Origin: Thiomargarita sp.
GTDB taxonomy: Bacteria; Pseudomonadota; Gammaproteobacteria; Beggiatoales; Beggiatoaceae
NCBI GenBank assembly: GCA_020726335.1
Contig: DYSU01000011.1
Span: 1-45,104, forward strand
Reading direction: 5' to 3'
Length of the DNA: 45,104 nt
The position numbers and the translations under genes were made by a program. The notes under the pieces are model-generated. The model was not told the origin of the DNA and searched no databases. It worked only from the letters and a program-made list of their open reading frames with translations. Shown piece after piece: positions 7,753 to 32,090 of this stretch; position 1 is the stretch's first letter, and the number at the start of each line of letters is the position of its first letter.

Positions 7753-9669
7753 TCAAGGTAAATAGACTTCATCACCCACATTCAACCCTTGAATCACTTC
7801 CACGGACGTTTCATTGCTTGAACCCAAAATCACGGCTTGTTCTTTGAATTGATTGATTTTTTTTAGTTTTACCCACCATTGGCCTTGGTTTTGATAAAGC
7901 GCGGACAAGGGCAACAACAAGGCTTTTTCATTTTCATAGGTGATGACTTCCAACGTGGCTGACATACCCAAGCGCAACAAAGGTCGCTGGCTTGCATCAA
8001 TGTGATGAACGATGATGCGCACATTGAAAAAGGGTACTTTGCCATATTCGCTGTCGGCTTGGGCGGAAATGCTGTCCACCCGACCTTTGAGTTTCAATTG
8101 CGGAAAAGCTTCACCTGAGACCAGCACGGTTTGTCCTTCATGGATTTTGGGAATATCGACTTCATCCACTTTGGCTTCCACCGCAATGCCCGTTAAATTG
8201 CCAATGGCAAACAAGGCTTCTCCTTGATTAACTTGTTTGCCATCAATGATTTGTTGTTGTGGCTGATCATTATTGCTTTTAACGGGCATGATCACGCCAT
8301 CGACAGGTGCAATGATTTTAGCGTTTTTTAGCCGTTGCTCTATGGCGCGCAATTGCAAAAAAGCGTTGTTCAACTCCAGCTCAGCCACTTTTAAATTTTG
8401 GCCTTGGCCTTTGGCTGTGACCGCTTCTAAACCTTGCAATGCGGTTTGGTATTCCAATTCTTGTTGGCGCAACGCTTGAACGCTGGCGCGGTGTTCGCTT
8501 TCAGGGATGATGCCCATGGTGAGCAGGCGTTGATTTTCTTGTTCTTTGGTGAACAGATCGCTTTTTTCCAGCTCCAATTGATGCACATGGCGTTTGGCAT
8601 CTTTGACTTCGGGGCCGTTTTGCCAATTTTTCAGTTCGTCTAAATGGTTTTTGGCTTTGATGTGATTGGCTTTAGCTTCTTGGGCGCGAATTTCTTCTTC
8701 AATGGTGTCCAGCTCCAGCAACAATTGGCCTTTTTTGACTTTTTCATGGTAATTGAAATAATGGCGTTCAATTTTACCGTTGAACGGACTGATGATATGC
8801 ACCACATCCAAAGGGCTGATATAACCCGACAATAAAAGGGTGGCGCGCATGGTTTGGTATTGCATGATTTGGCGGGTGCTGGGTTTTTCTGCCATAACGT
8901 CTTCTTCGCTGGCCATTTGTGTCACCAATGAATCTTTGCCGTGGATAAACCAAAACAATGACCCAATAAAACCAAGGACAAACAACAGTGAAACGATGCG
9001 GCTGATTTTTACTTGTCGCAAAGCGGTTCTCAACTCCTCATTGCTTTCGGTCAATTGTTGATAAGCGTTGGTCAATTGGCCATTTTGTTGTTGCAAAGCG
9101 GCAGACAATTGGCTTTCGTTGTCACGCAATTGGTTGACATGCTCGTAAAGTTGCGCATTTTCAATCGCAATCGCAATTTGAAAGCACAACGCCTTCAACA
9201 AGGATTCATCTTCTTTGGTAAAATTGCCGTGGTGTTTGTTCAACACTTGCACCACGCCAAGGACCTTTTTTTGCGGGTCAAACAACGGTACACACAATAA
9301 AGTGTGGGTGACATGTTGGCCATCGCTGTCGATGCGCGCATCAAAACGCGGGTCTTGGCTGGCCACATGACACAACACACTTTCGCCATGGCACAGGGCA
9401 TAGCCCGTGATACCACAATCAGCTTTCAACCAAACTTCTTTAAAATCAGTATGATGCCCCTCTTTTCCCTGTTTTACCTGTCGTTGCCGCAACCGTGACC
9501 ACAGCATGTTTTTTTCTTTGTCATACAAGAACAAAGTGCTGTGTTCAGCCGCCATAAAGCGGGTGATTTGCCCCATGGTTAAAGTGAGTACCGTGTTTAA
9601 ATCCATTTTTTTATAATAATTGAATATCTGATAAAATGCAGGCGAAATATATTCTATAACAATCTGCAT
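7753..9669 (-). CDS. GAF-domain / HlyD-type membrane fusion protein
   Basis: A fusion of about 638 residues. Residues 10-165 form a GAF domain ([49 protein letters not shown]). A Gln-rich coiled coil spans 170-220 and a transmembrane helix 222-243. The remainder is an RND/ABC-type periplasmic adaptor: [29 protein letters not shown] lipoyl half, long coiled-coil hairpin, [11 protein letters not shown] second half, and beta-barrel with [11 protein letters not shown]. No pump or outer-membrane channel gene is adjacent. Starts at 9669 or 9606 are possible; neither has a clear ribosome-binding site, and 9669 keeps the first GAF helix. The GAF part would lie in the cytoplasm and the adaptor outside. 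Confidence 0.82.
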
Positions 9670-10431: not shown

Positions 10432-11785
10432 CAATTTAACCGAACGCTTAAGCAAAACCTTTAAAAATTTAACGGGCAAAGGTCGCTTAAGCGAAAGCAA
10501 CATCAAAGAAGCCTTGCGTGATGTGCGCATGGCTTTGCTGGAAGCCGATGTGGCCTTGCCCGTGGTCAAAGATTTTATTGAAAAAGTGCGCCTGCGTGCC
10601 ATTGGGCAAGAAGTCATCGGCAGTTTAACCCCCGGTCAAGCTTTGCTCAAAGTGGTTTATGACGAATTGACCGCACTGATGGGCAATTATTGCGATGAAC
10701 TCAATTTGCGCGCCGCCCCGCCCGTGGTGGTGTTGGTCGCAGGTTTACAAGGTGCAGGCAAAACCACATCTATCGCCAAACTGGCGCGTTGGTTGCGCGA
10801 ACGCCAAAAAAAATCGGTCATGACCGTCAGTTGCGACATCTACCGTCCTGCGGCGATTGACCAACTGCAAACCCTCTCCCTTGAAGTCAACGCTCACTTT
10901 TTCCCCAGCCATACGGGGCAAAATCCTGTCAACATTGCCAAAGACGCGATTATTCAAGCGCGCAAACAAGCCGCCGATGTGGTATTGGTGGACACCGCAG
11001 GGCGGTTACACATTGATACCCAAATGATGGCAGAAATCAAAGCCATCCATGCGGCGATTAACCCCACAGAAACCTTGTTTGTGGTTGACAGCATGACCGG
11101 CCAAGATGCGGCCAACACCGCCAAAGCCTTCAACGATGCCTTGCCTCTGACGGGGATTATTCTGACCAAAGCCGATGGCGATGCACGCGGCGGTGCAGCG
11201 TTGTCGGTGCGCCATATCACAGGCAAACCGATTAAATTTTTAGGGATTGGCGAAAAAACCACGGCGTTAGAGCCGTTTTATCCCGACCGTTTGGCTTCGC
11301 GCATCATTGGCCAAGGCGATGTGCTGAGTTTGATTGAACAAGTCGAACAAAAAGTGGACAAACAAAAAGCCGCCAGCTTGGCCAATAAATTTAAAGCGGG
11401 CAAAGTTTTTGATTTAGAAGACTTTCGCACCCAACTGGAACAAATGCGCAAAATGGGCGGCGTGGCCAGTTTGATGGAAAAAATGCCCGGCATGGGGCAA
11501 GTGCCACAGGCGGCCAAAGCCAAAATCAACGACAAAGAAATGATCAAAATGGAAGCCATCATCAATTCCATGACCCCCAATGAACGCCGTTTTCCCGCCT
11601 TGCTCAAAGCCAGCCGCAAAAAACGCATTGCCGCAGGCTCTGGCACACAAGTGCAAGACATCAACCGTTTGCTCAAACAATTTAAAACCATGGGCAAAAT
11701 GATGAAACAAACCCGCAGTAAAGCGGGCATGGCGGGTTTAATGCGGGCGATGAAAGGCAAAATGCCGCAAGGATTACGGTTTTAA
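10424..11785 (+). CDS. ffh: Signal recognition particle GTPase Ffh
   Basis: A 453-residue SRP54-type protein that binds 4.5S RNA and signal sequences and delivers ribosomes to FtsY at the membrane. The N domain begins [22 protein letters not shown]. The G domain shows GLQGAGKTT, the insertion-box segment [22 protein letters not shown] and [15 protein letters not shown]. The Met-rich M domain ([25 protein letters not shown]) fills the C-terminus. The ATG at 10424 has GGAG seven to ten bases upstream and overlaps yebC. Confidence 0.97.
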
Positions 11786-27870: not shown

Positions 27871-28059
27871 ATGAACGTCCCAATTGTCACGGACAGCCAT
27901 CGCCCCCATTCGCAAAGCAAGCGCATCGGCAATTTGCTCAAGGCGCAGTATCTTAATGATTTTAAAAAGATTTTTGTTCATCATTTGGCGGACATGCGCG
28001 CCGATTGGGCAAAAACCGATGCTTTTGTCATCTTTTGTTTGTGTACGCCAGCGCATTGA
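27871..28059 (+). CDS. Unassigned small open frame after trxB (doubtful)
   Basis: A 62-codon frame begins eight bases after the trxB stop and has a good AAGGA before its ATG. The peptide includes HSQSKRIGNLLKAQYLNDF and ADWAKTDAFVIFCL, which I do not recognise. A second frame continues as ALMQVRNAPLAFALNTLMARHS around 28045-28110, and an 88-codon minus-strand frame (27790-28056) overlaps. The 249-bp gap 27863-28111 may hold a real small gene, a frameshifted relic or nothing coding. Confidence 0.25.
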   Translation: MNVPIVTDSHRPHSQSKRIGNLLKAQYLNDFKKIFVHHLADMRADWAKTDAFVIFCLCTPAH

Positions 28060-28111: not shown

Positions 28112-28636
28112 TCATAGCAACAGCAAATGCACCAGTTTTTTGACATCTTCTGCACGGCGGGCATCGATTTTTTCCACGGGGAAAATTTGCCCGCGCTGGG
28201 CTAAAACTTGTTTGTAATCAGATAGTTTAATCCGATTGGATACATCGCAACGGGTGATGCCAATCACCACATGGGTGCGCTGAATAAATTGGGCGAACGC
28301 ATCTAAATAGGTGTGCATGTCGTTCAGCGGGTCAGGGCTGGCGTTGTCCAAAAATAAAATCAAGCCATTGCCGCCTTTGGTTAAAATGGGCCACATGAAT
28401 TCAAAGCGTTGTTGCCCGGGTGTGCCGTATAAGTGTACTTTGTGGCCGCCATCTAATGTCAGCGTGCCGTAATCCATGGCCACGGTGGTGGTTTTTTTGT
28501 CATGGCGAATGTGTCGGGATGACTTGACTTCGCTGTGTAACACTCTGTTTTCACTGATGCTACAAATGGCAGTGGTTTTACCCGCGCCCACGGGACCTGT
28601 GAAAATGATTTTACTGGGTTTTTCTGGATTAATCAC
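28112..28636 (-). CDS. Small GTPase of the COG2229/CvnD (MglA-related) type
   Basis: A 174-residue single-domain GTPase. G1 is FTGPVGAGKTT (residues about 12-22), switch I contains the KKTTTVAMDYG segment, G3 appears as LYGTPGQQRFEFMW instead of DTAGQ, and G4 as TRCD. The GTPGQ form is characteristic of the COG2229 GTPases, including CvnD of Streptomyces conservons, relatives of MglA. Such proteins pair with roadblock proteins; one is encoded at 30287, across the divergent promoter region. It is last of a PAS - PhnD-like - GTPase series on the minus strand, 30 bases after the preceding gene. Cytoplasmic. Confidence 0.88.
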   Translation of the reverse strand: MINPEKPSKIIFTGPVGAGKTTAICSISENRVLHSEVKSSRHIRHDKKTTTVAMDYGTLTLDGGHKVHLYGTPGQQRFEFMWPILTKGGNGLILFLDNASPDPLNDMHTYLDAFAQFIQRTHVVIGITRCDVSNRIKLSDYKQVLAQRGQIFPVEKIDARRAEDVKKLVHLLLL

Positions 28637-28666
28637 CTTGACTTTCTCCGCTTGATTTTTTGTCAG

Positions 28667-29413
28667 CTAGCTTCTTAATGTATCGACCACATCAATCATG
28701 AATTCCATTTCTTCTTGGCCGATGGCATCCCAGCAGTCAAAACCAAGATTGTGCAACGCATCTAACCCCGTTGTTTGTTTGGGCATCTCCAATAAAGCTT
28801 GTTGTAAATTGGGCATTTTCGCCAGCATGTCAGGGTGAATCATTAAGGTGTGATGGATGATAAAAATTTGGCTTCTGACCAATGGCCGCAGTTGTTTGCG
28901 CACTAAATTAGACAAATGGTCATAGGCTTCAGTCAAGAAAAACCCCACATCCGCTTGACCTTTGATTAGATTTTTGGCAATTAAAATATAGTTTTCGCAC
29001 AGAATGGGCCGAACATCGTTTTTATTTAAATCGGCAGGCTCTAACATGATCATCCCCATCATTTGTACGCTGGGGTCTTGGGTATAGGCGACGCGACAAC
29101 CCATGTCCAATTCTTCTACGTTTTGCGCAAGGTGTTTGTTGGCCACTGCAATGAGTGCTTCATCGGTTTTTTTATGCGGACAAACCAAGGGTACAAAGTT
29201 TTTTTCCCGCATCAACACGCCCGCATCGTAGGGGTTGGCGTAAATCAGGTCGATTTTATTGTCGTTGATCGCTTGGCGTTGGCCACTGAAATCGTCGTAT
29301 ACATCAAAATGTACCGCTTGGCCAAAGGTTTTTTGTAGCCATGTATTGAAAATAAACCATCCTGACAGTTGTTCAGGATTGTAATCTGGACTGACGCTTA
29401 ATTTATAAGACAT
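28667..29413 (-). CDS. PhnD-like phosphate/phosphonate-binding-fold protein without signal peptide
   Basis: A 248-residue protein matching the PhnD-type periplasmic-binding fold (PF12974): YKLSVSPDYNPEQLSGWF, the hinge phrase DLIYANPYDAGVLMREKNFVPLVC, RVAYTQDPSVQMMG and KGQADVGFFLTEAYDHLS. The start at 29413 leaves no signal peptide or lipobox, and no transporter genes are adjacent, so it is probably a cytoplasmic ligand-sensing protein. A longer frame to 29536 overlaps the PAS gene. It lies between the PAS and GTPase genes. Confidence 0.78.
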   Translation of the reverse strand: MSYKLSVSPDYNPEQLSGWFIFNTWLQKTFGQAVHFDVYDDFSGQRQAINDNKIDLIYANPYDAGVLMREKNFVPLVCPHKKTDEALIAVANKHLAQNVEELDMGCRVAYTQDPSVQMMGMIMLEPADLNKNDVRPILCENYILIAKNLIKGQADVGFFLTEAYDHLSNLVRKQLRPLVRSQIFIIHHTLMIHPDMLAKMPNLQQALLEMPKQTTGLDALHNLGFDCWDAIGQEEMEFMIDVVDTLRS

Positions 29414-29435
29414 GGTAAATACTCTTGTTATTGGC

Positions 29436-29918
29436 TTAAAATAAAGTGGGATAAAAGGTTTCACATTCATGTACTTTGGTACGCGAAGGTTTGCGGCGCA
29501 CTGAAGTATAACTGACAATTTGGCCGTCACGAACATTGGGAATCACCGTGGCATACACCCAATAATACGCACCGTCTTTGCGTAAGTTTTTCACATAGCC
29601 AAACCATTTTTTGCCTTGTTCAATCGTATCCCACAAATCTTTAAACGCTGCGGGCGGCATGTCGGGATGGCGCAAAATATAATGCGGTGCGTCCATTAAT
29701 TCCTCTGTGGAAAAACCTGACATATCAACGAATGATTGATTGACATGGGTGATGATGCCTGTAACATCGGTGGTGGAGACAATTAAACGTCCTTCAGGAT
29801 AAGGAATTTCTTCTTGCGTGTATAATACCCGACGCGCTCTATTGTCTGCATAGGTTAAAACCGTTTCTTGATAGTCTCCTCTCATATCTTCTGGACGCAT
29901 GTCTTTGAGTTCTTTCAT
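29436..29918 (-). CDS. Aer-type PAS domain protein
   Basis: A 160-residue single PAS domain. The segment VSTTDVTGIITHVNQSFVDMSGFS, then HPDMPPAAFKDLWDTI and GYVKNLRKDGAYYWVYATVIP, matches the Aer/FAD-binding PAS subgroup that senses redox or oxygen. There is no attached output domain or membrane helix, so it must act through other proteins, probably the two downstream products. AAGGAA precedes the ATG at 29918, which is preferred over the upstream codon at 29960. Confidence 0.85.
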   Translation of the reverse strand: MKELKDMRPEDMRGDYQETVLTYADNRARRVLYTQEEIPYPEGRLIVSTTDVTGIITHVNQSFVDMSGFSTEELMDAPHYILRHPDMPPAAFKDLWDTIEQGKKWFGYVKNLRKDGAYYWVYATVIPNVRDGQIVSYTSVRRKPSRTKVHECETFYPTLF

Positions 29919-30286
29919 AAAATATTCCTTTTTTGTTATGCCTTGCAGATAGCAAAGCAAATTGCAAAGATGAGGCTTAAAGTTTCAAATTAGCCCATGT
30001 GATGTTCAGCATCGGTTATTTTTCTTGTAAATCAGGATGATATGACAAATACATCAGGCCAAAATGAATCTTGCCTTTTCAATTAAAAACGGTACGGTAA
30101 CAATTTAATATCGTCATTAAGCAAGCTTTACGCCCTCTGTTCAACACAATTTAAATTTCTTTTAACCACCATCAACCAGCCTTGGTTTTTGGCGCGTCTG
30201 TTATGGAGAATGGATTAAAATTTAAAATGGAATGGATATTGCCCTTTCGTACACTATTCAATTCCCAAGACAAAGGAGATTAAACC
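29919..30286. other. Divergent intergenic region (368 bp) between the PAS and roadblock genes
   Basis: No gene or strong terminator seen. It must hold the promoters for both arms of the signalling cluster. I found no convincing -35/-10 pair. The roadblock gene has AAAGGAG at 30272-30278. Two A/T-rich stretches around 30095-30160 and 30210-30235 are possible promoter sites. Confidence 0.5.
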
Positions 30287-30655
30287 ATGGAATTAGATAG
30301 AATGTTATTGGGTGTGCTAGAAAGCTTAAAAAGCACATCCGTTGATATTGAAGCGGCGGCGGTGTTGTCTGTTGACGGCTTGACAATGGCCTCTATTTTA
30401 CCTTCTGATTTAAACGAAGACCATGTAGGCGCGATGGGTGCCGCCATGCTGTCTTTGGGCGAGCGCACGGCCCAAGAACTTCAACGCGGCAGTTTGGAAC
30501 AAGTGTTAATAAAAGGCCAAAAAGGTTATGTCATCATGACCAGTGCAGGTGAAGAAACTGTTTTAGCTGTCTTGGCCAAATCTTCTGCTAAACTCGGTTT
30601 AATCTTTTTTGACATCAAACGTGCCGCCAAGGAATTGGTTAAAATTTTAGATTAA
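30287..30655 (+). CDS. Roadblock/LC7 domain protein (MglB/CvnB-like)
   Basis: A 122-residue protein consisting of one roadblock/LC7 domain: an opening helix (ELDRMLLGVLESL), then VDIEAAAVLSVDGLTMAS, GAMGAAMLSLGERTAQEL, VLIKGQKGYVIMTSA and TVLAVLAKSSAKLGLIFFDI. Roadblock proteins form dimers that bind small GTPases and act as activating or scaffold factors (MglB for MglA, CvnB for CvnD). A matching GTPase lies 1.7 kb away on the other arm of the cluster. AAAGGAG precedes the start. Confidence 0.92.
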   Translation: MELDRMLLGVLESLKSTSVDIEAAAVLSVDGLTMASILPSDLNEDHVGAMGAAMLSLGERTAQELQRGSLEQVLIKGQKGYVIMTSAGEETVLAVLAKSSAKLGLIFFDIKRAAKELVKILD

Positions 30656-30729
30656 TTTATCAAAAAAATGTCCCAATCTGACAAACATTGTTTTGCTCAG
30701 ATTACAACTTCAACTGTGATGTGCTAACC

Positions 30730-31665
30730 ATGAAACCTAAAATAATCATACCTTTAACCCTAATCTTATTGGGCGGATTTTGCGTGATTGCGGCTTCTTG
30801 GTTAAGTCGGCACATCACCGAAGACCTTAGCCGTCAAGTAAAACAACTGTTTTATGACATGGAATTGCCGCAAGAAGCGGTTGCAGTGCAAGGCACCCAA
30901 CTGCTGATTGACCAAGAAACCCTTAACCGCACCAAAGAAAAGGCTAAAAGCAACAATAACGCTGAACCCATTACACCACCGACTATAGACCGCACCACTG
31001 AAACCGAACCAGCCGCGCTACCTGACGCAGAAAAAGCGATAACACAAGCCACTGCCACAACAGCAGAACCTGAATTAAATGAAACCACAACTGAAGAACA
31101 GCAGACCACCGAGGCGGTACCAAAAGAAATCACAACCGCCCATGAACGGGCTGTTCCTGAAACCAACGAACTTGACACGGCAACGACAGAAACAGCCTCA
31201 GAGAACAACAGCCAGAGCGAAAAAATAAAACCTGAAACCATACCGCCTGTTATCAACGAAACAGTTCAAACCACCGCCGACCAAAGCCAAGACAGCTTAT
31301 TACAAGCAGAAATCAACCGCTTGTTTAGCCATGAAAAAATTGAATTTGAATTTGAAAGCACCCATTTAACCGAAGCCAGTGAAATATTGCTCAATGAATT
31401 GGTCAAACTCCTCAATCAATATCCCGCCGCCTTGATCGAAATCGCAGGCCATTCCGATGCCCGAGGTAATCCCCAATTTAACCAAAAACTAAGCCAACAC
31501 CGTGCCGAAATTATTTTAGAATATATATATAAACAAGGCATTGAACGCCATCGATTGACCGCCATGGGCTATGGTGACAGCAAACCTTTGATTGCTGATG
31601 CAAAAACCCCAGAACAACACCAAACCAATCGGCGTATCAGTTTCACCCACCGCAAGGAAAATTAA
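30730..31665 (+). CDS. OmpA-family protein with inner-membrane anchor
   Basis: A 311-residue protein. Residues 5-24 form a membrane anchor (IIIPLTLILLGGFCVIAASW); about residues 75-195 are a low-complexity Thr/Glu/Pro/Ala linker; the last 110 residues are an OmpA-type peptidoglycan-binding domain (IEIAGHSDARGN, LSQHRAEIILEYIYKQGI, AMGYGDSKP, TNRRISF). The topology is that of MotB-like or PG-tethering proteins, without the MotB plug. The start at 30730 lacks a strong ribosome-binding site; a codon at 30688 would add 14 polar residues. One base separates its stop from the next gene's start. Confidence 0.85.
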   Translation: MKPKIIIPLTLILLGGFCVIAASWLSRHITEDLSRQVKQLFYDMELPQEAVAVQGTQLLIDQETLNRTKEKAKSNNNAEPITPPTIDRTTETEPAALPDAEKAITQATATTAEPELNETTTEEQQTTEAVPKEITTAHERAVPETNELDTATTETASENNSQSEKIKPETIPPVINETVQTTADQSQDSLLQAEINRLFSHEKIEFEFESTHLTEASEILLNELVKLLNQYPAALIEIAGHSDARGNPQFNQKLSQHRAEIILEYIYKQGIERHRLTAMGYGDSKPLIADAKTPEQHQTNRRISFTHRKEN

Positions 31666-31666
31666 A

Positions 31667-32002
31667 GTGGACACACTATTTCAACAACTTTTAGGTTGGT
31701 TTTTAGCCAGTGCAGGCTTGGGATTTGCTGCGGGCGGATTGGTTATGCACTTGTTTTCCCAACAAAAATTACACCATCTGCAAAATGAACAACAACAGCA
31801 TAAAATTCAATCAAAGCGACAACAACAAGCCTTAGATGATAAAGAATATATGATTCAAGAACTTAAAATGGAATTGGACCGCTGTGAACAACAAACCACA
31901 GCAAAACAAAATCAAGAAAGCGATTGCAGTGGTTATCAAATCAAAATTGCCCAACTGGAAAAAGCGTTATTGGATGTACTGAAAAATCGCCAAGCAGAAT
32001 AA
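31667..32002 (+). CDS. Small membrane-anchored coiled-coil protein
   Basis: A 111-residue protein starting with GTG at 31667, preceded by AAGGA, directly after the OmpA-like gene stop. A membrane helix (about 9-30, LGWFLASAGLGFAAGGLVM) leads to a Gln/Lys/Glu-rich coiled coil to the end. An in-frame ATG at 31592 lies inside the previous gene. Function unknown; tight spacing suggests it works with the OmpA-like protein. Confidence 0.72.
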   Translation: MDTLFQQLLGWFLASAGLGFAAGGLVMHLFSQQKLHHLQNEQQQHKIQSKRQQQALDDKEYMIQELKMELDRCEQQTTAKQNQESDCSGYQIKIAQLEKALLDVLKNRQAE

Positions 32003-32036
32003 ACAACTGCAGTTAAACGCTTGTTTAAACGCAAAA

Positions 32037-32066
32037 AAACCAGCAAGCCCAAAGGTTTGCTGGTTT
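32037..32066. terminator. Bidirectional intrinsic terminator
   Basis: AAACCAGCAA (32037-32046) pairs perfectly with TTGCTGGTTT (32057-32066) around a ten-base loop. A T-rich tail follows on the plus strand and a run of seven T follows on the minus strand, so it can end both the signalling operon and aprA, which converge here. Confidence 0.85.
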
Positions 32067-32090
32067 TCTGTTTCACTCAATCGTCAGTGA

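Follow-up and report, generated by a model that had tools for sequence, protein, structure and literature searches.

Within a 45,104-nt stretch of Thiomargarita sp. DNA (GCA_020726335.1, contig DYSU01000011.1), here called the window and used as the frame for all coordinates of the locus, six genes at 28112-32002 are arranged in two divergent transcripts, three genes on the minus strand and three on the plus strand. The minus-strand transcript encodes, in reading order, a stand-alone PAS protein of the kind found in the aerotaxis receptor Aer, a protein with the fold of the binding proteins PhnD and PtxB (the PhnD-like protein) and a small GTPase, with gaps of 22 and 30 bp between the genes, while the plus-strand transcript encodes a roadblock/LC7 protein, an OmpA-domain protein and a membrane protein with a coiled coil. 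All six open reading frames (ORFs) are present with the domains that an earlier, sequence-only reading of this DNA had named, as judged by Pfam and, for the coiled-coil protein, by sequence features. Comparison across genomes shows that the roadblock protein, the Aer-type PAS protein, the PhnD-fold protein and the small GTPase form a conserved module, of which the OmpA and coiled-coil genes are an occasional and not a core part.

The linkage was followed with two separate searches, one for the roadblock protein and one for the PhnD-like protein, in the same 369 genomes of the class at E <= 1e-15, which returned roadblock matches in 46 genomes and PhnD-like matches in 19 genomes at 20 places. 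Each of the 16 PhnD-like matches with E < 1e-50, that of the window among them, has a roadblock match within 0.9 kb, and together they span 12 families, the window counted, so that the co-occurrence of these genes in other genomes, which the sequence-only reading had proposed looking for, was found. The distance between the PhnD-like and roadblock matches is 511-700 bases in 14 of the 16, which fits a PAS gene lying between them, 874 bases in the window and 282 bases in the genome G349, where the PhnD-like copy contains an in-frame stop codon and both PAS and roadblock are incomplete. In all of the 22 other loci with both a PAS and a PhnD-like gene, roadblock, PAS and PhnD stand in that order on one strand, and the window is the sole divergent (head-to-head) layout among the loci compared. 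The named carriers of this trio are a Gammaproteobacteria metagenome-assembled genome (MAG), two Luteimonas, three Psychrobacter, a Lampropedia and a Corticibacter. Among 36 genomes of the window's own family a PhnD-like gene is found in the window only, besides distant matches at E 4e-7 or worse, and the roadblock gene is the single Robl_LC7 match in the whole window genome (2.1 Mb, 88 contigs).

The other 4 of the 20 PhnD-like places, in three genomes, are weak matches of 29-31% identity (G061, G206 twice and G313), and each lies on a contig other than those of the roadblock matches of its genome. In the weakly PhnD-like proteins of L096, L098 and L100 the frame begins 0, 13 and 0 residues before the fold, with no long leader; the protein at L100:6906-8143, without an export signal, is encoded directly after an SCP2-domain protein, and its genome has a roadblock locus that lacks PAS and PhnD. 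A decayed copy of the module was seen in L094, with an in-frame stop in PhnD and incomplete PAS and roadblock, which may be an error of the draft assembly.

The gene calls and other features of the locus are given in Table 1. Two starts of the sequence-only reading were revised, since for the OmpA gene ATG 30730 is likelier than TTG 30688 and for the coiled-coil gene GTG 31667 is likelier than 31592. The terminator proposed for the end of the plus-strand run is borne out by a strong hairpin, as the 78-nt stretch has a folding energy of -27.1 kcal/mol (z -4.5) and 0 of 200 shuffles were equally stable; the hairpin is absent from the output of a simple terminator scan. The stretch between the divergent transcripts presumably serves as a regulatory region common to both, and a consensus promoter scan of the locus returned fewer sites than were found in shuffled sequence. 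Near the locus lie thioredoxin reductase, to one side, and adenylyl-sulfate reductase aprBA, to the other, a setting that suggests a gammaproteobacterium with sulfur metabolism. A 62-codon open frame (27871-28059) between the GTPase gene and that of thioredoxin reductase looks by eye like the beginning of an NAD(P)H-dependent FMN reductase-type protein and is perhaps a remnant.

Table 1. Genes and other features of the locus, in window coordinates.
Feature	Position	Strand	Basis
Group-3-like MglA small GTPase, 174 aa, GTG start	28112-28636	-	Pfam Ras, ATP_bind_1, G motifs
PhnD/PtxB-fold protein without export signal, 248 aa	28667-29413	-	PF12974 E 2e-33
Stand-alone Aer-type PAS protein, 160 aa	29436-29918	-	PAS_3 E 1e-16
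Intergenic stretch of 368 bp, divergent transcripts on both sides	29919-30286		gene borders
Roadblock/LC7 protein (MglB-like), 122 aa	30287-30655	+	PF03259 E 1.2e-16
OmpA-domain protein, 311 aa: N-terminal membrane anchor, long linker, C-terminal OmpA	30730-31665	+	PF00691 E 3e-19
Membrane and coiled-coil protein, 111 aa, GTG start	31667-32002	+	sequence features
Intrinsic terminator hairpin, end of plus-strand transcript	32036-32067 (stem)	+	folding energy

The PAS protein has as its best match in the PDB the PAS domain of an aerotaxis receptor (8dik, E 1e-35), in agreement with the Aer type assigned to it earlier, and is also similar in sequence to the PAS domain of NifL. It consists of PAS only, with neither a HAMP domain nor the signalling domain of a methyl-accepting chemotaxis protein (MCP). 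The match makes the proposed role of a redox reporter plausible, and binding of FAD or another flavin may be expected from it.

The model of the PhnD-like protein has a predicted local distance difference test (pLDDT) of 92.3, and its best fold matches are PtxB, ArrX and PhnD with TM-scores of about 0.8. Read from ATG 29413, the protein begins at the first beta strand and has no leader. Its frame could begin at 29536, which would add 41 residues that overlap the PAS gene and are absent in relatives. In 18 of the 22 intact PhnD-like proteins of the module the open frame begins 0-9 residues before the fold, and in the other four (window, L033, L034 and L088) the open frame is longer and reaches back into the PAS gene, which upholds the earlier statement that the protein lacks a signal peptide. 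Transporter partners, which the sequence-only reading had named as a sign of an importer, were not found as a shared feature: a repeated ATP-binding cassette (ABC) ATPase cluster is present at only 1 of 24 PhnD loci (L032, on the opposite strand), genes that are single and unshared being partly annotated.

Further features set the module proteins apart, as compared in 23 of them (the broken L094 was left out, and L095, split in two frames, lacks the N-terminus). In none of the 23 does the Ser/Thr-rich stretch of PtxB, which we take to form its anion-holding contacts, appear at the aligned place, in an alignment that is weak (E 1e-6), and letters of the DPDV type stand opposite the stretch in all 23. 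Near the C-terminus all 23 carry a motif like EFMIDLMDTL (EFMIDVVDTL in the window) that is absent from the 4 other PhnD-like proteins aligned; letters on the side of the cleft, such as YANPxDA, are retained. On the grounds of alignment and model the protein looks like a repurposed binding-protein fold, which likely has a different ligand or none. The phosphate- or phosphonate-like ligand that had been suggested for it hence finds no support, as far as a weak alignment and the presumed ligand contacts of PtxB can tell.

The genes beside the roadblock gene vary between loci. For this comparison one row was counted per roadblock locus, the window included, giving 72 loci. The count leaves aside L001-L031, which cover the same places in shorter form, L066-L080, which are paralogous, of low identity or short, and L096, L098 and L100, which have no roadblock gene. 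The 72 loci are not independent, as G234 and G382 give two each and many share a family, and since some contigs are short, a gene missing from the count may reflect a contig end. The PAS-PhnD pair is present in 23 of the 72 loci, one of them also with protoglobin; in L094 PhnD is present but PAS is not intact. There are 24 loci with CZB (22 directly beside the roadblock gene, L041 and L053 only after the GTPase gene) and 6 with protoglobin (five just before the roadblock gene, one just after), while 19 loci have none of the four commonest sensor genes. CZB never occurs together with PAS or PhnD (0 of 72 loci), and one genome, G382, carries both kinds of locus, PAS-PhnD in L085 and CZB in L112. 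Directly downstream of the roadblock gene lie FIST in L051 and L115, V4R in L037 (a Campylobacterales MAG), ODP in L120, MCP in L116 and a FimV/HubP-like gene in L111; the remaining loci of the 19 have unrelated, unclear or no listed genes in this place. The domains Aer PAS, CZB, protoglobin and ODP serve as sensors of redox state, of oxidants or zinc, or of oxygen. There are thus signs that the place beside the roadblock gene is a sensor slot. Independently, a sensor and a roadblock domain are joined in the globin-roadblock fusion HGbRL of Methylacidiphilum, as described in the available text of PMC4476040. At L032 a second ODP gene was seen 4.3 kb upstream.

The GTPase (Pfam Ras 34.4 bits at a cut-off of 21.6; ATP_bind_1 40.2 bits) is encoded 1.65 kb from the roadblock gene. 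Group 3 of the MglA/MglB proteins was described from sequence in 2014/15 by Wuichet and Sogaard-Andersen, whose main text lists as its hallmarks GTPGQ in the G3 motif, a G4 motif without lysine, DAR in the G5 motif and an Asp-Gly pair in MglB (PMC4316618). By sequence, the GTPase/roadblock pair of the window carries these motifs: GTPGQ is invariant in 13 of 13 aligned GTPases including that of the window, G4 reads TRCD with the usual lysine missing, G5 reads DAR, and the Asp-Gly pair is D30-G31, invariant in 12 of 12 aligned roadblock proteins. The assignment to Group 3 is made by motifs, and the trees described below comprise relatives from this analysis rather than the reference sequences of PMC4316618. 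In the available text of PMC10806987, mglA and mglB are type VI secretion genes.

In the tree of GTPases that of the window has a long branch and clusters with five GTPases encoded at a second, paralogous locus in its own family, a grouping with support in the Shimodaira-Hasegawa-like approximate likelihood ratio test (SH-aLRT) of 96 with all rows and 94.9 with four rows dropped; an alternative tree in which it falls in the clade of its family's roadblock-linked GTPases is not rejected by the approximately unbiased (AU) test (p-AU 0.19). The roadblock protein of the window falls outside the clade of its own family, and the tree that holds it inside that clade is not rejected and is slightly better (p-AU 0.595); the gene may, but need not, be foreign in origin. 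For the AU tests long-branch rows were dropped, 15 of 84 for the roadblock proteins and 4 of 66 for the GTPases. The second paralogous locus of the family (L069-L075, L078-L080) encodes a pseudo-receiver-type protein, a divergent roadblock protein and either a single GTPase or two, and is followed in L072 by an OmpA-domain gene and in L080 by a short ORF that is STAS-like by eye. The window genome also encodes a second Group-3-like GTPase (L124:9498-10508 on G000:C1) with a C-terminal extension of ~150 aa, after which comes a 214-aa ORF at 10524-11168; the extension and this ORF are roadblock-like by eye, which Pfam does not confirm.

In relatives outside the window's own family the usual gene order is a TPR-like protein, a protein of a 429-aa type, GTPase, a protein here called X213 and roadblock, and PAS and PhnD, where present, come after roadblock. 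The main text of PMC4316618 describes for Group 3 a partner with predicted receiver and winged-helix folds and suggests gene regulation; such a partner is usual in the group but no part of what defines it. The 429-aa-type protein, present in 55 of the 72 loci, is presumed from its description to be this partner. The N-terminal pseudo-receiver part has matches in the window genome at G000:C40:12342-12719, in a response regulator, and at G000:C41:31880-32167. X213 has no Pfam match in the one protein scanned, and its identification as a roadblock protein by profile comparison with the roadblock alignment failed, with no match (probability 0.4%). In its predicted structure (pLDDT 77.5) the C-terminal half looks roadblock-like, and roadblock-fold chains (Roadblock/LC7, MglB, Ragulator subunits) make up all of the best 50 matches listed, with a best E of 1.2e-3 and none at E <= 0.001. 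Judged from this model, X213 probably corresponds to the second MglB found in Group 3 loci. In L087 a second, very divergent PhnD-like ORF (8484-9218) lies between the X213 and roadblock genes of a locus that also holds a normal PAS-PhnD pair.

As to the two remaining genes of the window, the OmpA-domain protein has an N-terminal hydrophobic stretch and the coiled-coil membrane protein has no Pfam match above its cut-off. A pair made up of an OmpA gene that encodes an N-terminal membrane segment and, after it, a membrane/coiled-coil gene is also found in L095, L111 and L120. L095 and L111 come from two genomes of one family, and there the gene directly before this pair encodes a protein with a FimV/HubP C-terminal domain (41.6 and 45.3 bits at a cut-off of 30.65, the core domain being below its cut-off). 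The run of FimV/HubP-like, OmpA and coiled-coil genes stands after the module in L095 and after roadblock in L111. The sequence-only reading had counted the OmpA and coiled-coil genes as members of the module, which is right in that the pair recurs but holds for only three other loci. A possible connection with pili was looked for in gene content: the PilT family, counted by eye, is present in 45 of 46 roadblock-positive versus 264 of 323 roadblock-negative genomes (Fisher p 0.0026, kinship uncorrected). In Snodgrassella, the authors of PMC11112851 infer, in the text available, that mutation of an orphan mglB altered pilus-dependent motility and colonisation, and PMC10519157 mentions MglA and FimV in passing only, in its accessible part.

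Taken together, the locus is read here as a redox-sensing GTPase polarity switch of the Group 3 MglA/MglB type with stand-alone cytoplasmic sensors, an interpretation whose chances we rate as marginally better than even. The Aer-type PAS protein would read the redox or energy state, probably via a bound flavin, and together with the PhnD-fold protein would change the nucleotide state or the location of the GTPase through contacts with the roadblock protein. The GTPase would then act on partners in the envelope, which in the window may be the OmpA-domain protein and the coiled-coil membrane protein, and control in this direction would set pole- or pilus-linked behaviour. Such an arrangement would be a short path by which energy taxis feeds a GTPase polarity switch, in place of CheA. 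In a wider and more tentative version, to which we give distinctly less than an even chance, Group 3 MglA/MglB loci in general would constitute a sensory platform parallel to chemotaxis, where exchangeable single-domain sensors beside the roadblock gene (Aer-type PAS, CZB, protoglobin, ODP, FIST, V4R) directly feed a Ras-like GTPase polarity switch and where a former substrate-binding protein has become a cytoplasmic switch subunit travelling with PAS.

A number of observations weigh against the interpretation as a sensor-fed polarity switch. X213 was not found in the window genome by single-sequence or alignment searches, nor was a full-length 429-aa-type partner, two proteins of this genome matching the N-terminal part of the partner only (E 4e-7 and 4e-5), and therefore the module in the window may be a reduced one. 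The window GTPase groups with a paralogue other than the roadblock-linked GTPases of its own family, and no GTPase gene was found in the stretch examined for 5 of the 8 named trio loci (L033, L034, L038, L039 and L040). Since the window's own family supplies 23 of the 24 CZB loci, the mutual exclusion of CZB and PAS-PhnD is partly a matter of kinship. The pilus link is weak because the pilT model also matches E. coli and 309 of the 369 genomes, and the host of the globin-roadblock fusion is reported to be non-motile in the available text of PMC4476040.

Where the output lies is the point on which a first rival explanation differs, according to which the GTPase and the pseudo-receiver/winged-helix partner control genes, with PAS-PhnD as a tuning input, and transcription rather than the cell pole is regulated. 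The fold predictions and the suggestion of gene regulation in the main text of PMC4316618 favour it, as does the frequency of the presumed partner among the 72 loci, but in the window genome GTPase, roadblock, PAS and PhnD are all retained with no full-length partner found, and FimV/HubP-like and OmpA neighbours, albeit in few loci, point to the envelope, so that we consider a transcriptional output unlikely, although well short of negligible. A different question is posed by the PhnD-like protein, which could be an adaptor or regulator of the GTPase nucleotide state that binds no small molecule, leaving PAS as the sole sensor. Both the missing Ser/Thr stretch and the C-terminal motif shared by all 23 module proteins are consistent with such an adaptor; however, the fold and the cleft-side letters are kept, so some ligand may bind, and the comparison with PtxB involves presumed ligand contacts and a weak alignment. 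An adaptor role is accordingly a serious possibility, if one that we would not call probable.

It is very improbable, by comparison, that the PhnD-like protein is a component of an importer with a hidden export signal. Pfam names its family periplasmic phosphonate-binding protein and the window frame can be extended by the 41 residues mentioned above, but this extension, like the longer frames of the other three exceptions, runs into the PAS gene, the remaining 18 frames start at the fold or within 9 residues of it, and the ABC cluster stands near one locus only and on the opposite strand; a hidden importer was rejected on these frame starts and on the rarity of that cluster. Equally hard to credit is a chance meeting of unrelated genes in the window, for which the head-to-head layout, unlike that of the 22 other loci compared, could be cited. 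Linkage of these core genes in 12 families refutes a chance meeting of the roadblock, PAS and PhnD-like genes, while the OmpA and coiled-coil genes may still be there by chance.

The sequence-only reading had presented the locus as a candidate new signalling module, which holds for the PAS-PhnD pair and for the signs of a sensor slot; the GTPase/roadblock core was already known, as it carries the Group 3 motifs published in PMC4316618, going by its main text. In the open-licence literature no report was found that ties the Group 3 core to PAS and PhnD or to a sensor slot, that joins PhnD with GTPase and roadblock or roadblock with CZB and GTPase, or that deals with roadblock/LC7 and GTPase in Acinetobacter. 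Signal input to bacterial Ras-like GTPases is known mainly from Myxococcus and from conservons. Conserved yet varying separate sensors would make the input side of a large and little-tested beta/gamma-proteobacterial family directly testable, and could connect oxygen or redox sensing with the control of poles and pili in a kinase-free manner. The PhnD-like protein would also illustrate clearly how a substrate-binding protein can be put to new use within the cell.

Compared with the known Group 3 MglA/MglB systems, as portrayed in the main text of PMC4316618, the locus has in common GTPGQ, the lysine-less G4, DAR, the MglB Asp-Gly pair and the beta/gamma-proteobacterial range, to which most relatives add the pseudo-receiver-type partner and a second roadblock-like protein. 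It differs in that neither a full-length partner nor an X213-type protein was found in the window genome and in the added PAS and PhnD genes, neither of which its section 18 mentions, PAS being absent from the main text altogether. The mgl locus of Snodgrassella and other Neisseriaceae shares a Group 3 MglA with a coupled and an orphan MglB, whereas no PhnD or phosphonate term appears in the main text of PMC11112851, nor any partner of this kind in its available text. OmpA and coiled-coil partners also occur at the Group 1 Rup GTPase loci, according to PMC4316618, which is a parallel for which no homology is claimed. HGbRL of Methylacidiphilum likewise ties a heme sensor to a roadblock domain, but in one fused polypeptide, reported from one genus, with a host reported as non-motile (PMC4476040, available text). 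The binding proteins AioX, ArrX, PtxB and PhnD share the fold, with the TM-scores to ArrX, PtxB and PhnD given above, but they are periplasmic, while the PhnD-like protein has no export signal and a C-terminal motif of its own and, in the weak alignment, does not show the Ser/Thr stretch of PtxB at the aligned place. No CvnA-type histidine kinase was found among the six genes of the locus and three neighbours scanned; in the actinobacterial conservons (CvnA-D), which resemble the locus in their GTPase and roadblock pair with an adjoining sensor gene, the sensor is such a kinase, in contrast to the stand-alone cytoplasmic domain here. The Aer aerotaxis receptor, finally, has a closely similar PAS domain, which in Aer is fused to HAMP and MCP domains and in the window forms a protein by itself.

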